Shown here piece by piece: positions 16,710 through 35,414 of a DNA stretch of 40,174 nt. Position numbers and translations under genes: made by a program. Location: IMG/VR virus record IMGVR_UViG_3300006805_000060, positions 1-40,174 of that record, one strand, 5' to 3'. Numbering within the stretch: the first letter of the stretch is position 1; the number at the start of each line of letters is the position of its first letter. The notes below the pieces were generated by a model. The model did no database searches and had not been told where the DNA came from. It saw nothing but the letters and a program-made list of their open reading frames with translations. The DNA is from a virus.

Positions 16710-17641
16710 AAATTGCAGTGTGTTCGGACATCCACCTTGAATTTGGTGACCTTGATTTGCACAATACAGAGAATGCCGATGTGCTGATTCTTGGTGGTGA
16801 TATTTTTGTCGCTAACGACCTTGTAAGTCTTGAAGATTCCATTGAAACTGCAAAACTGGTACCAACACGAGCTCGTTTTCGTGCAGAGAAATTTTTTGAT
16901 TTTGTAAAACGTTGTAGTGATCGGTTCCCTAAAGTAATTTTGATTGCTGGTAATCATGAACACTATCATGGTGAGTTTCAGGATACATATAAAACAATCA
17001 AAAAATCCTTTAAAGAATTTACCAATGTGTATGTTTTGGATAAAGAATCGGTAGAACTCAATGGCACCATTTTTGTTGGTGGTACATTGTGGACTGATAT
17101 GAACAAAGAAGATCCAATGACCATTCATGCAATTTCTGGTATGATGAACGACTTCAATTGTGTGACAAATGGCATAACACACCGTAAAGTGCCTCTGTAT
17201 AAAAAAGATGCATCAGGTGAATATATCATTGACGATAATCGTATTGGTTACATCATAGATGGTTTTAAAATGAAAGAAGAACCTGCCAGATTTACTCCTA
17301 ACCATGCGGTGGAAGATCACAAACAATTTCTTCAATATTTGAAACTAGTAATGGAAAATAACACAGATAAAAAACCTGTTGTTGTTTGTTCTCACCATGC
17401 ACCAAGTCGTAGAAGTACACATCCAAAGTATGCAGGACAAACACTAATGAATGGTGGGTATAGTTCTGAATTGGATGAGTTTATTATGGATAGACCAGAT
17501 ATCAAACTATGGACTCATGGTCACACACACGAACCTTTTGATTATATGGTTGGTGATACTCGTATCGTTTGCAATCCGCGTGGTTATATAAACCATGAAA
17601 AGAGTGCAGATTATTTTGAGTTAAAATTTGTTGAAATTTAA
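16706..17641 (+). CDS. Calcineurin-like metallophosphoesterase (311 aa)
   Basis: All signature blocks of the family are present: SDIHLE (Asp8, His10), GGD (about 30-32), GNHE (82-85), SHH in VVVCSHHAPS, and GHTH (272-275). These bind two metal ions that hydrolyse phosphodiesters or phosphomonoesters. The DNA-repair Mre11/SbcD partner features are absent, and length suits a stand-alone enzyme. Related proteins occur in many T4-like phages. The substrate is unknown. The gene overlaps the previous stop (ATGA) and is followed after nine bases by rubrerythrin with a strong aaggagat site. Confidence 0.9.
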   Translation: MKIAVCSDIHLEFGDLDLHNTENADVLILGGDIFVANDLVSLEDSIETAKLVPTRARFRAEKFFDFVKRCSDRFPKVILIAGNHEHYHGEFQDTYKTIKKSFKEFTNVYVLDKESVELNGTIFVGGTLWTDMNKEDPMTIHAISGMMNDFNCVTNGITHRKVPLYKKDASGEYIIDDNRIGYIIDGFKMKEEPARFTPNHAVEDHKQFLQYLKLVMENNTDKKPVVVCSHHAPSRRSTHPKYAGQTLMNGGYSSELDEFIMDRPDIKLWTHGHTHEPFDYMVGDTRIVCNPRGYINHEKSADYFELKFVEI

Positions 17642-17650
17642 GGAGATAAA

Positions 17651-18103
17651 ATGAGTGTTACAATTAAGAATTTAGAAGCAGCATTTGCTGGTGAGAGTCA
17701 AGCACACACCAAATACCGTTATTTTGCTAAGATGGCAAGAGCACAAGGATTTGAAGATGTTGCAAAACATTTTGAACATACAGCAGAACAAGAGTTACTT
17801 CATGCGTGGGGTCATTTGGAATTGCTGATTGGTAAACCAGATGTTAAACAGTGCCTTGAAATGGCCATTGAAGGTGAGACACACGAGTTCACTACAATGT
17901 ATCCTACAATGCAATCAGAAGCAATTGCAGAAGGTGATGAATTTGCTGCGAAAGAAGCAGCAGATCAAATTGCAGAAAGTAAAGAACACGCAGAACAATT
18001 TGCGGCAATTCTTGTTAAGGCAGAAAAACGTTTTAATGCTTTGAAGAAAGTAGAACAACGTCATGCAGAAGCTTACACAAAAGTATTGGAGAATGTAAAA
18101 TGA
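17651..18103 (+). CDS. Rubrerythrin lacking the rubredoxin domain (150 aa)
   Basis: A four-helix ferritin-like diiron protein. The N-terminal half matches rubrerythrin well: FAGESQAHTKYRYFAKMA, then EHTAEQELLHA with an ExxH pair. The second half has EGETHEFTTMYPTM and EAIAEGDEFAAKEAA. The last ligand pair is odd: the sequence reads AESKEHAEQF where the family has ExxH, so the Glu sits one residue further from the His. Classic rubrerythrins reduce peroxide with electrons from a C-terminal rubredoxin domain. Here that domain is missing but encoded separately by the overlapping next gene. A role in peroxide protection during infection is inference. Confidence 0.9.
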   Translation: MSVTIKNLEAAFAGESQAHTKYRYFAKMARAQGFEDVAKHFEHTAEQELLHAWGHLELLIGKPDVKQCLEMAIEGETHEFTTMYPTMQSEAIAEGDEFAAKEAADQIAESKEHAEQFAAILVKAEKRFNALKKVEQRHAEAYTKVLENVK

Positions 18104-18234
18104 GTGAAACACATGTGTGTGTAGTATGTGGTCATGAACATGATGATCTAGTAGAAGGTGCATGGGGTACATTACCCGATGATTTTACTTGTCCTGAATG
18201 TGGTTGTGGTAAAGAAGAATACGAGTCAATTTAA
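18100..18234 (+). CDS. Rubredoxin-like protein (44 aa)
   Basis: ATG overlaps the rubrerythrin stop as ATGA, so both are translated together. The two Cys pairs are CVVCGH at residues 7-12 and CPECGCGK at 31-38, with GTLPDDFTC before the second pair. This matches the rubredoxin pattern CxxCG...PxDwxCPxCGxxK, where four Cys hold one iron. The protein is shorter than free-standing rubredoxins (about 53 residues) because of a shorter middle loop, close to the size of the domain at the end of ordinary rubrerythrins. It most likely passes electrons to the neighbouring rubrerythrin. Confidence 0.88.
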   Translation: MSETHVCVVCGHEHDDLVEGAWGTLPDDFTCPECGCGKEEYESI

Positions 18235-28748: not shown

Positions 28749-30240
28749 TTGCCTAACACACTTAGATCAAATCTCTCAACAGTTAGGCACCCAAAATAAA
28801 ATTGCAGTAATCGATAATACAAATTCAATCACATACAGTGAATTGTACACCAAAGCAAAACGTTTTGGTTGTTCACTGTTGAACTGCAATATCAAACATC
28901 AAGAACATATCATAATATGTCTCGAAGATTCTATAGATTTCATTGTTTGTTTTCTGGGTTCAATCTATGCAGGTATAATACCTGTTGTAATTAATCCCAA
29001 TTTATCAAATTCAGAAATTCATCAAATTGTAGTCAAAAGCCCAGCCAACAATGTCATTTGTTCCAAATCTAGGGCCAATGATTTTTGTCAGAAAGAATGG
29101 AATCTGATATTAATTCCTGATGTTATCACTGGCAATTCAGTTGACAGATTCATTGGTCAACAATATAATACAAAAATTGAACCAACTGACACATATGAAA
29201 ATGATGATGCTTTTATTTACTGTACATCTGGTACCACAGGACACATAAAACTGGTGGTACATTCTCAAAAAAGTATTTGTGGCACCGGACTGCAATATGG
29301 TACATCAGTAATATCATTGAATAAAAATGATGTTGTATTTTCTGCTGCGAAACTATCTCATGCATATGGTTTAGGAAATTCCATTTCAATTCCTTTTGTT
29401 CACGGATGTACCGTCGTATTGGAATCAAGTCTGGCCACGCCAGAAACTATAGTAAAACTTATAGAAACCAATAAGGTTACCACTTTCTGTGGAGTACCGA
29501 GACACTTCACCTCTTTATTAAATACATCCAGGCAGTATAGTTTGGATACATTAAAAGTTTGTTTATCCGCAGGAGAATCTTTACCACAAAAAGTAGGTAA
29601 GGACTTTACAAATCGATACAAGTGTGTTATAATCAATGCAATAGGTTCTACAGAAATATTAGGTTTTGCCTTGTCCACAAGATCAGACGACATTGCTTAT
29701 GGTAGTACCGGCACGGTAGTTGATGGTTGTCAAGTGAAATTAATGGACGACTACGGTAATGAAGTGAAACAGGGACAACTAGGTGAATTATTTGTACATA
29801 GTGAGTATTCATCTAAAAAATATTGGAATGATGAAAGTTCAACACAATATACTTTCATCGATGGTTGGATAAAAACTAACGATATGTATATGGTGAATAC
29901 AAATGGTCATTATGTGCATAAAGGTCGAAAAAATGATTGTATGAAAGTTAATGGTTTATATGTTTCATTGACTGGATTAGAAAAAGATTTATATGAGGTG
30001 GATTCGATTTTAGATGCAGCTGTGGTTTTTGTTGAGAATAAATACGGATTGAATAAGATTGAATTGCATATAGTATTAAAAGATAATTTCAATGAGGATA
30101 TAGAATATGCAAACATACAACAACATTTCAACAAACACGAATTGTTATCAAACCGTCCTTTTACCATAAAAATTATAGACGCATTGCCTCGTACACAATC
30201 TGGTAAAATCAAGAAATATGTTTTATTAAATAGAGATTAA
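28723..30240 (+). CDS. Acyl/aryl-AMP-forming ligase, ANL superfamily (505 aa)
   Basis: A complete class I adenylate-forming enzyme. Core motifs: A3 YCTSGTTGHIK at 166-176, A5 GSTE at 308-311, A7-like TND with Asp387, A8 GRKNDCMKVNG at 401-411, and A10 RTQSGKIKK with Lys495. The segment FSAAKLSHAYGLGNS (206-220) is close to the FSAAKLFFAYGLGN block of benzoate-CoA ligases, hinting at an aryl or short carboxylic acid. Such enzymes make an acyl-AMP and pass it to CoA or a carrier; no carrier domain is fused. Start TTG at 28723 is preceded by ggaga at six bases. I do not know T4-like phages with this gene. Confidence 0.9.
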   Translation: MQQNQLPYNCLTHLDQISQQLGTQNKIAVIDNTNSITYSELYTKAKRFGCSLLNCNIKHQEHIIICLEDSIDFIVCFLGSIYAGIIPVVINPNLSNSEIHQIVVKSPANNVICSKSRANDFCQKEWNLILIPDVITGNSVDRFIGQQYNTKIEPTDTYENDDAFIYCTSGTTGHIKLVVHSQKSICGTGLQYGTSVISLNKNDVVFSAAKLSHAYGLGNSISIPFVHGCTVVLESSLATPETIVKLIETNKVTTFCGVPRHFTSLLNTSRQYSLDTLKVCLSAGESLPQKVGKDFTNRYKCVIINAIGSTEILGFALSTRSDDIAYGSTGTVVDGCQVKLMDDYGNEVKQGQLGELFVHSEYSSKKYWNDESSTQYTFIDGWIKTNDMYMVNTNGHYVHKGRKNDCMKVNGLYVSLTGLEKDLYEVDSILDAAVVFVENKYGLNKIELHIVLKDNFNEDIEYANIQQHFNKHELLSNRPFTIKIIDALPRTQSGKIKKYVLLNRD

Positions 30241-34731: not shown

Positions 34732-34756
34732 CAAAGTAAAATAAATAGAGTATAAT
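34728..34756 (+). promoter_or_regulatory. Consensus sigma70 promoter of the tmRNA gene
   Basis: TTGACA at 34728-34733, a 17-base spacer and TATAAT at 34751-34756: both hexamers and the spacing are consensus. Transcription would start near 34763, about 20-25 bases before the first recognisable tmRNA element. The -35 overlaps the stop codon of the nuclease gene. Confidence 0.9.
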
Positions 34757-34762
34757 GTAAGT

Positions 34763-35090
34763 TATTGTTGTATGAAGTAGAATGAAAGGTGTTCAAGACG
34801 CGGGTTCGATTCCCGCCGGGTCCACCAAAAGCATATTGGGATCAGGTCACGCTAGAGATAATGCTAAGAGACTACTAGCGGTAAATGTTCCTGTTAAAAA
34901 AACAACTAATATGCTTTTGATGGGCTCGACCAGGTTTCGATTGGGCAATAAGTAAAGATATGGACAACACGACACAGAGAGTCGTAAAAAGTAAAAACTA
35001 GTAAATGCAAACGATAACTCGTTCCGCCAAGTAGCCTAAAAACTACTAGCTGAGGTTTCGCAAGGTGTCCTTATCATCCAATCACCTTGC
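34763..35090 (+). ncRNA. ssrA: Circularly permuted (two-piece type) tmRNA precursor
   Basis: Order is acceptor piece, intervening segment, coding piece. Acceptor piece: T arm GCGGG-TTCGATT-CCCGC (34800-34816), acceptor strand CGGGTCC (34817-34823), A73 and encoded CCA (34825-34827). Coding piece: GGGCTCG (34922-34928), which pairs fully with the acceptor strand and gives the G3-U70 wobble that AlaRS reads. GGTTTCGA follows, as in bacterial tmRNA. P2 forms between 34790-34796 and 34941-34947 (7 bp). A small hairpin at 34969-34985 is probably part of PK1. The resume codon GCA is at 35007 and the tag is ANDNSFRQVA with TAA at 35037-35039. An 8-bp hairpin (35060-35067 with 35083-35090) likely marks the 3' end. 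The exact 5' end is unknown; SmpB is not encoded here. Confidence 0.93.
34827..34918 (+). other. Intervening segment of the tmRNA precursor with closing helix
   Basis: The two tmRNA pieces are joined by a segment whose ends, 34827-34837 and 34908-34918, are perfect 11-bp reverse complements. With G34919-C34826 and A34824-U34921 added, the helix stacks on the 7-bp acceptor stem with one C-A mismatch. Inside lies a second hairpin, CGCTAG with CTAGCG (34850-34855 with 34875-34880). Processing would remove about 94 bases to free the CCA end and the 5' end of the coding piece. Confidence 0.85.
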
Positions 35091-35097
35091 ATAAATA
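35090..35097 (+). promoter_or_regulatory. Possible T4-type late promoter element CATAAATA
   Basis: CATAAATA directly after the 3' hairpin of the tmRNA and about 33 bases before the ATG at 35130 resembles the NATAAATA late element of T4-like phages. The position would suit late transcription of the lysis/replication group downstream. A short motif in AT-rich DNA is weak evidence. Confidence 0.35.
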
Positions 35098-35129
35098 CAT
35101 ACACACAACACACACAATTAGGACTTAAA

Positions 35130-35414
35130 ATGTCACAACCCATGTCTCCATTCCAAATAAGATTGGAATTGTTGAAGATGGCCAAAGAATTATTGGTCGA
35201 TGACTTCAACACAAAAAAAGATGTAATTCAAGAAGTCTGGCAAACTCAAGTGGAATCTGCAAAAATTGCAGGTGCAACATCACCTCCACACCCTACATTG
35301 CCACCATATCCCACAGAAGAAGAAATTGTAAAGAAAGCAGAAGCTCTCAATCAATTTGTTTCTCAAACCACTCCACAACCAGAAATAAAGATCACGAAGA
35401 AATCTAATTCGTAA
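35130..35414 (+). CDS. Conserved small T4-like protein (94 aa)
   Basis: MSQPMSPFQIRLELLKMAKELLVDDF is a beginning I recognise from small proteins of T4-like cyanophages (MSxPMTPFQIRLELLKLAKdi...). An N-terminal amphipathic helix is followed by a Pro-rich linker and an acidic/basic end. Function unknown. ATG follows taggac. Confidence 0.7.
   Translation: MSQPMSPFQIRLELLKMAKELLVDDFNTKKDVIQEVWQTQVESAKIAGATSPPHPTLPPYPTEEEIVKKAEALNQFVSQTTPQPEIKITKKSNS

Follow-up and report, generated by a model that had tools for sequence, protein, structure and literature searches.

A T4-like phage contig on which an erythrin gene runs directly into a small rubredoxin gene raises the question of whether a rubrerythrin gene has been split in a phage or whether two genes were acquired as two genes, and the further question of what the products would do in an infected cell.

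Gene anatomy and protein families

The window (the whole stretch of DNA analysed, a 40,174-base virus contig) carries the T4-like genes RIIA, RIIB, SSB, helicase loader, PhoH, and CobS-like ATPase, and is from a T4-like virus of bacteria. The erythrin gene is an open reading frame of 150 aa on the plus strand (17651-18103), and the rubredoxin gene is a short open reading frame of 44 aa on the same strand (18100-18234); exactly as an earlier note on this DNA had it, the two genes share the sequence ATGA (18100-18103, plus strand), a stop/start overlap of the translational-coupling type. Direct reading of the plus strand reveals the Shine-Dalgarno-like motif AAGGAG 5' of the erythrin gene (17640-17645) and the Shine-Dalgarno-like motif GGAG within the end of the erythrin gene (18088-18091), 8 nt 5' of the rubredoxin ATG; with a loose pattern, such a motif is found 5' of the rubredoxin in 60/60 relatives. 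The open reading frame after the rubredoxin gene has its start on the rubredoxin stop, at 18234.

The erythrin matches Pfam family PF02915 (Rubrerythrin) with E=2.9e-16 and 60.5 bits vs. a gathering score of 22.8, and its AlphaFold2 model (pLDDT 95) has the four-helix erythrin fold. Structural comparison of model residues 1-128 with B. pseudomallei rubrerythrin (4di0/8fxd) yields Z 14; rubrerythrins and sulerythrins are close structural neighbours, and ferritins are far below. The canonical Glu and His residues of helices 1-3 are all present (E15, E48, H51, E76, and E79), as are the four rubredoxin cysteines (Cys7, Cys10, Cys31, and Cys34), in agreement with the earlier note's claim that, one Glu apart, the putative metal ligands are kept. 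The protein is not a classical two-domain rubrerythrin: it scores 72 bits against NCBIfam RuberyRbr, for which the cut-off is 200; Pfam finds no C-terminal rubredoxin domain in its 150 aa, as had been claimed; and the rubredoxin, a fused, short-spaced C-terminal domain in classical forms, is a separate gene in another frame. Neither protein has a significant family match in PHROGs. On sequence grounds, the phage erythrin matches the published group 5 'cyanobacterial-type' lineage (Cardenas et al. 2016, PMC5114695), whose members lack a rubredoxin domain or else carry one with long spacing (27-32) at the C terminus. The phage erythrin has no rubredoxin domain, and its cyanobacterial relatives are fused to one with a spacing of 29; its best bacterial matches are proteobacterial, then cyanobacterial, with a tree in agreement (membership of the bacterial loci compared here being by description, against published group 5); and motifs common to phage, proteobacterial, and cyanobacterial rows are absent from Pelagibacter-type and classical rows.

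The rubredoxin matches PF00301 with E=3.6e-6 and 27.3 bits vs. a cut-off of 23, a match that recurs in 60/60 relatives at E<=0.01, and matches PDB rubredoxins down to 5e-8; RUBY_RBDX, the Pfam domain of fused rubrerythrins, reaches only 0.088. Phage rubredoxins have two CxxC knuckles, with invariant Cys, Gly, Pro, and Lys residues, and their Cys pairs are separated by 20 (or 17) residues (20 in the window), vs. 29 in bacterial rubredoxins. For each of the 60 phage rubredoxins the top score is against a free proteobacterial rubredoxin, never against a fused form; mean best scores are 122 (free proteobacterial), 68 (cyanobacterial fused), and 57 (classical). These comparisons support assignment of the phage rubredoxin to the free type, not to the C-terminal domain of classical rubrerythrin.

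Elsewhere in the window, a complete TonB-dependent outer-membrane receptor, with plug and barrel, is encoded on this T4-like phage contig at 31372-33414 (PHROG 5687; a distant PqqU-like match falls below the cut-off); an AMP-dependent acyl-CoA ligase-like open frame with an SGTTG motif, a weak AMP-binding_C match (8.7e-4), and no obvious ATG start lies at about 28750-30237; and a phage-encoded tmRNA with tag peptide ANDNSFRQVA lies at 34735-35130.

Pairing across viral contigs and the split-gene question

Relatives of the erythrin are encoded by 406 stretches in IMG/VR. Among the best 80 of the 406, a rubredoxin gene lies downstream of the erythrin gene in 79, mostly in direct overlap; the sole exception (L007) is a sequence that ends 64 bases past the erythrin gene. 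At one locus (L060) the erythrin frame is cut short at 89 aa, and the rubredoxin is still there. A scan of IMG/VR from the rubredoxin side, with an alignment as query, gave 80 loci, 79 of which have an erythrin gene upstream and the last of which has only 69 bases there. Both genes are present together in every IMG/VR contig examined that has room for them (about 160 contigs by hand count) and are adjacent in nearly all; in L077, L198, L254, and L255 a gap of roughly 140-180 bases separates them. The overlap among 60 phage pairs is 1 nt in 46 and 4 nt in 12. The flanks vary, the next commonest neighbour family being present at 33/97 loci. Median dN/dS is 0.15 for the erythrin and 0.24 for the rubredoxin (Nei-Gojobori; estimates rough at high dS), and both genes are under purifying selection. 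We conclude, from the co-occurrence in all related contigs with room together with the dN/dS medians, that the pair is not a product of chance.

Two neighbouring families recur near the pair (flanks of L002-L081 and L243-L259): one is deaminase-like, judged by eye to be dCMP deaminase, at 33/97 loci, and the other, also judged by eye, is small-heat-shock-like, at 30/97 loci. In a divergent phage branch, erythrin and rubredoxin are separated by a gene that by eye resembles class II aldolase (L243, 1092-2131; L250, 2414-3077).

The nearest bacterial erythrins are nearly all proteobacterial, at about 60% and up to 64% identity, and include those of Polynucleobacter, Limnohabitans, and their relatives; several come from freshwater genera. 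A separate, adjoining rubredoxin gene is present at 45/50 proteobacterial loci (among the other five, L085 has only ~150 bases downstream), and in the cyanobacterial relatives (L133-L146, L149, L150, and L153) the erythrin is fused to a long-spaced rubredoxin. In the tree, phage erythrins form one clade (99/86), proteobacterial erythrins another (88/65), and cyanobacterial erythrins a third branch (100/100); phage and proteobacterial sequences together form a 100/100 clade, from which the fused cyanobacterial relatives are distant. As far as the tree shows, phages gained the pair a single time; this is likely rather than proven, because the rows are limited to the best matches from the individual scans and rooting is at the midpoint only.

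The results argue strongly against the proposal, made in the earlier note, of a split rubrerythrin. Recent mutation of a fused classical rubrerythrin in the phage would account for adjoining, overlapping genes in the order of fused rubrerythrins, but we consider it highly improbable: the reading frames of erythrin and rubredoxin differ in 60/60 pairs, the rubredoxin is of the free type in 60/60, the two-gene state is common to the proteobacterial and all the phage relatives, and classical rubrerythrins lack the second copy of helix 4 described below. Since the frames differ, the one point change that had been thought capable of separating the parts could neither join nor separate them. Fused relatives are a distant cyanobacterial clade, in a lineage for which a one-domain ancestor, with fusion in cyanobacteria, has been inferred (Cardenas et al. 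2016, PMC5114695). No fused phage homologue was seen among the viral loci examined. A sequencing error separating one frame was ruled out, since relatives share the separate two-gene arrangement. What stands from the earlier note is its other option, that the parts were always distinct, and its description of a phage-borne redox pair, both in keeping with the adjoining genes of the proteobacterial relatives and the free-type rubredoxin. Taken jointly with the peroxidase explanation below, inheritance of the pair as two genes from the proteobacterial branch, not by breaking of one gene, is in our judgement probable. The idea of a broken fusion is thereby corrected: the two genes are separate in proteobacteria and fused in cyanobacteria.

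Helix 4 and the putative metal site

Helix 4 of classical and aerobic-type erythrins bears the ligand motif ExxH, its Glu 26-27 residues past the M of MYP. Depositors aim at this helix-4 Glu, as the PDB mutant 9onr (E53A E124A) and a mutant sulerythrin entry (E53D:E126D) indicate. In the phage erythrin this ligand register is occupied by S110, preceded by E109, and H113 is in place; the MYP-to-His distance is 30 in 94/95 group-5 rows, as in most classical forms. The shifted Glu is not explained by one extra residue inserted into helix 4, since the MYP-to-His spacing is unchanged. A complete ExxH (E135/H138) lies 25 residues beyond this register, and E109, S110, H113, E135, and H138 are invariant in an alignment of 129 phage, 50 proteobacterial, and 17 cyanobacterial rows. 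The shifted Glu of the earlier note is thus real, at E109/S110, but is not peculiar to the window: it is fixed family-wide, with a complete E135-x-x-H138, absent from the earlier note's account, further on.

The two segments are H4a (codons 97-121; 17939-18013, plus strand), with the invariant motif E109-S110-x-x-H113 at the MYP-to-His spacing, and H4b (codons 122-149; 18014-18097, plus strand), with the canonical motif and a match to classical helix-4 segments. Scored against those segments, residues 122-149 of the window erythrin reach 39.5 and residues 97-121 reach 8.2; averages are 36.5 for H4b and 17.3 for H4a, H4b scores higher in 93/93 relatives, and the best scores of shuffled C-termini, used as a control, average 4.6 with a maximum of 18.5. 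MAFFT, unaided, placed classical helix 4 on H4b. On the simplest reading of these sequences, helix 4 looks tandemly duplicated in the group-5 lineage.

AlphaFold2 predicts a single straight helix comprising residues 97-149, in which H4a lies within the bundle (pLDDT ~98) and H4b has pLDDT ~85, and a second AlphaFold run with bacterial rows again predicts a straight helix 97-149. The structural match to rubrerythrins stops at residue 125-129 in nearly all cases. We read the helix limits and the aligned range as suggesting that H4b protrudes from the bundle; the model, being a monomer without metal, is silent on whether H4b serves a partner subunit. As to which copy would bind iron, the AlphaFold monomer favours H4a, which is in the canonical place, and the sequence favours H4b. 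A tentative reading, which we regard as possible but somewhat doubtful, is that the group-5 di-iron site is built unlike that of every solved rubrerythrin we found, with H4b providing ligands, perhaps to a dimer partner, or with both copies together forming an extra metal site; with the same reserve, the phage form could be a free-standing version of this arrangement that works with a trimmed-down rubredoxin. A brief literature search on helix-4 duplication found no description of it. The apparent duplication is a more novel point than the pairing, yet is a property of the whole lineage, phage and bacterial, and the helix-4 motifs raise a metal-site question for a rubrerythrin lineage for which we found no PDB entry.

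Proposed function and comparison with known systems

By homology only, the most likely function of the pair is rubredoxin-fed peroxide reduction, and we think it probable that the pair is a phage-held, two-gene group-5 rubrerythrin system that acts as an electron-fed peroxidase. According to this proposal, the two-gene unit would have been taken once from the proteobacterial branch, after which the rubredoxin would have lost a 9-residue loop; erythrin and rubredoxin would be made in step through the stop/start overlap; a host NAD(P)H- or ferredoxin-dependent reductase would reduce the rubredoxin, which would hand single electrons to the erythrin di-iron centre, which would convert H2O2 to water; and peroxide removal would shield either the host cell during infection or metal enzymes that belong to the phage. 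The cyanobacterial rubrerythrin Anabaena RbrA (Alr1174) is an FNR-dependent peroxidase (review PMC6616624), and ferriperoxin, a rubredoxin-less relative, is a peroxidase (PMC3317640). The constancy of the rubredoxin partner suggests that the rubredoxin is the electron donor. In RbrA, electrons from FNR go to the erythrin domain and do not pass through the rubredoxin domain (review PMC6616624), so that flow through the phage rubredoxin is not assured. No reductase gene was identified among the window open reading frames scanned (part of all of them), and a host enzyme must be assumed. The Ser at the helix-4 ligand position (E109-S110) in the whole family counts against the peroxidase proposal.

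Alternative explanations differ in what they assign to each protein. The pair might scavenge or store iron or oxygen in a ferroxidase-like manner, supplying or hiding iron in infection, with the rubredoxin freeing iron by reduction; the ferritin-like fold, and a long helix that could alter the oligomer form, are in line with this, but the nearest characterised relatives are peroxidases and the close structural matches are not ferritins, and we consider storage unlikely. Rubredoxins are able to serve several partners. That capacity, and the aldolase-like gene between the two genes in L243 and L250, would suit a rubredoxin that serves other phage or host enzymes and an erythrin that is merely linked to it; however, an erythrin lies upstream at every rubredoxin-side locus with room, whereas other neighbours vary, and we judge this explanation a little less likely still. 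An unused copy of host genes, carried along and left to drift, would be consistent with the pair's bacterial origin, but purifying selection on both genes, the invariant motifs, and the wide spread make this extremely improbable.

The peroxidase proposal thus describes a probable peroxide-defence unit kept over long evolution by one broad phage clade, always as erythrin plus rubredoxin; such long retention suggests that these viruses are under genuine selection from oxidative stress in infection. The open literature searched (subscription papers and preprints being outside it) contains no report of an erythrin/rubredoxin pair in phages, and viral rubrerythrin has a single-genome mention (PMC10146946). 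The virus-resident clade is new; the two-gene system itself was already known.

Classical rubrerythrins (D. vulgaris 1b71 and P. furiosus 1nnq) share with the phage erythrin the erythrin fold and the helix 1-3 ligand positions, but have a fused short-spaced rubredoxin domain and a single helix 4. Aerobic-type one-domain forms (ferriperoxin, sulerythrin, and B. pseudomallei 4di0), like the phage erythrin, have no rubredoxin domain and provide its best structural match (Z 14), but have a single helix 4. Pelagiphage Mosig (L082, 5986-6411) has an aerobic-type erythrin with a single helix 4, and a search of the surrounding 1-2 kb or so found no rubredoxin; this suggests that phages acquired an erythrin on a separate occasion. 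Anabaena RbrA, in the same group by description only, is one fused protein in which electrons are reported to bypass the rubredoxin domain; the cyanobacterial relatives found here share both helix-4 motifs. Short free PDB rubredoxins (1spw and 6rxn) have, like the phage rubredoxin, two CxxC knuckles, an LPDDW-like stretch, and a shortened loop, but nearly all phage copies have CGH where CGY or CGF is usual. The closest likeness is to proteobacterial group 5 (Cardenas et al. 2016, PMC5114695), where the erythrin likewise lacks a built-in rubredoxin domain, is about 60% identical, and has both helix-4 motifs, and where a free rubredoxin gene adjoins it in the same order. The phage system differs in that its erythrins form a separate clade, its two genes share 1-4 nt, most bacterial ones being tens of nt apart, and its rubredoxin has a loop reduced by 9 residues (Cys pairs separated by 20 residues, vs. 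29).
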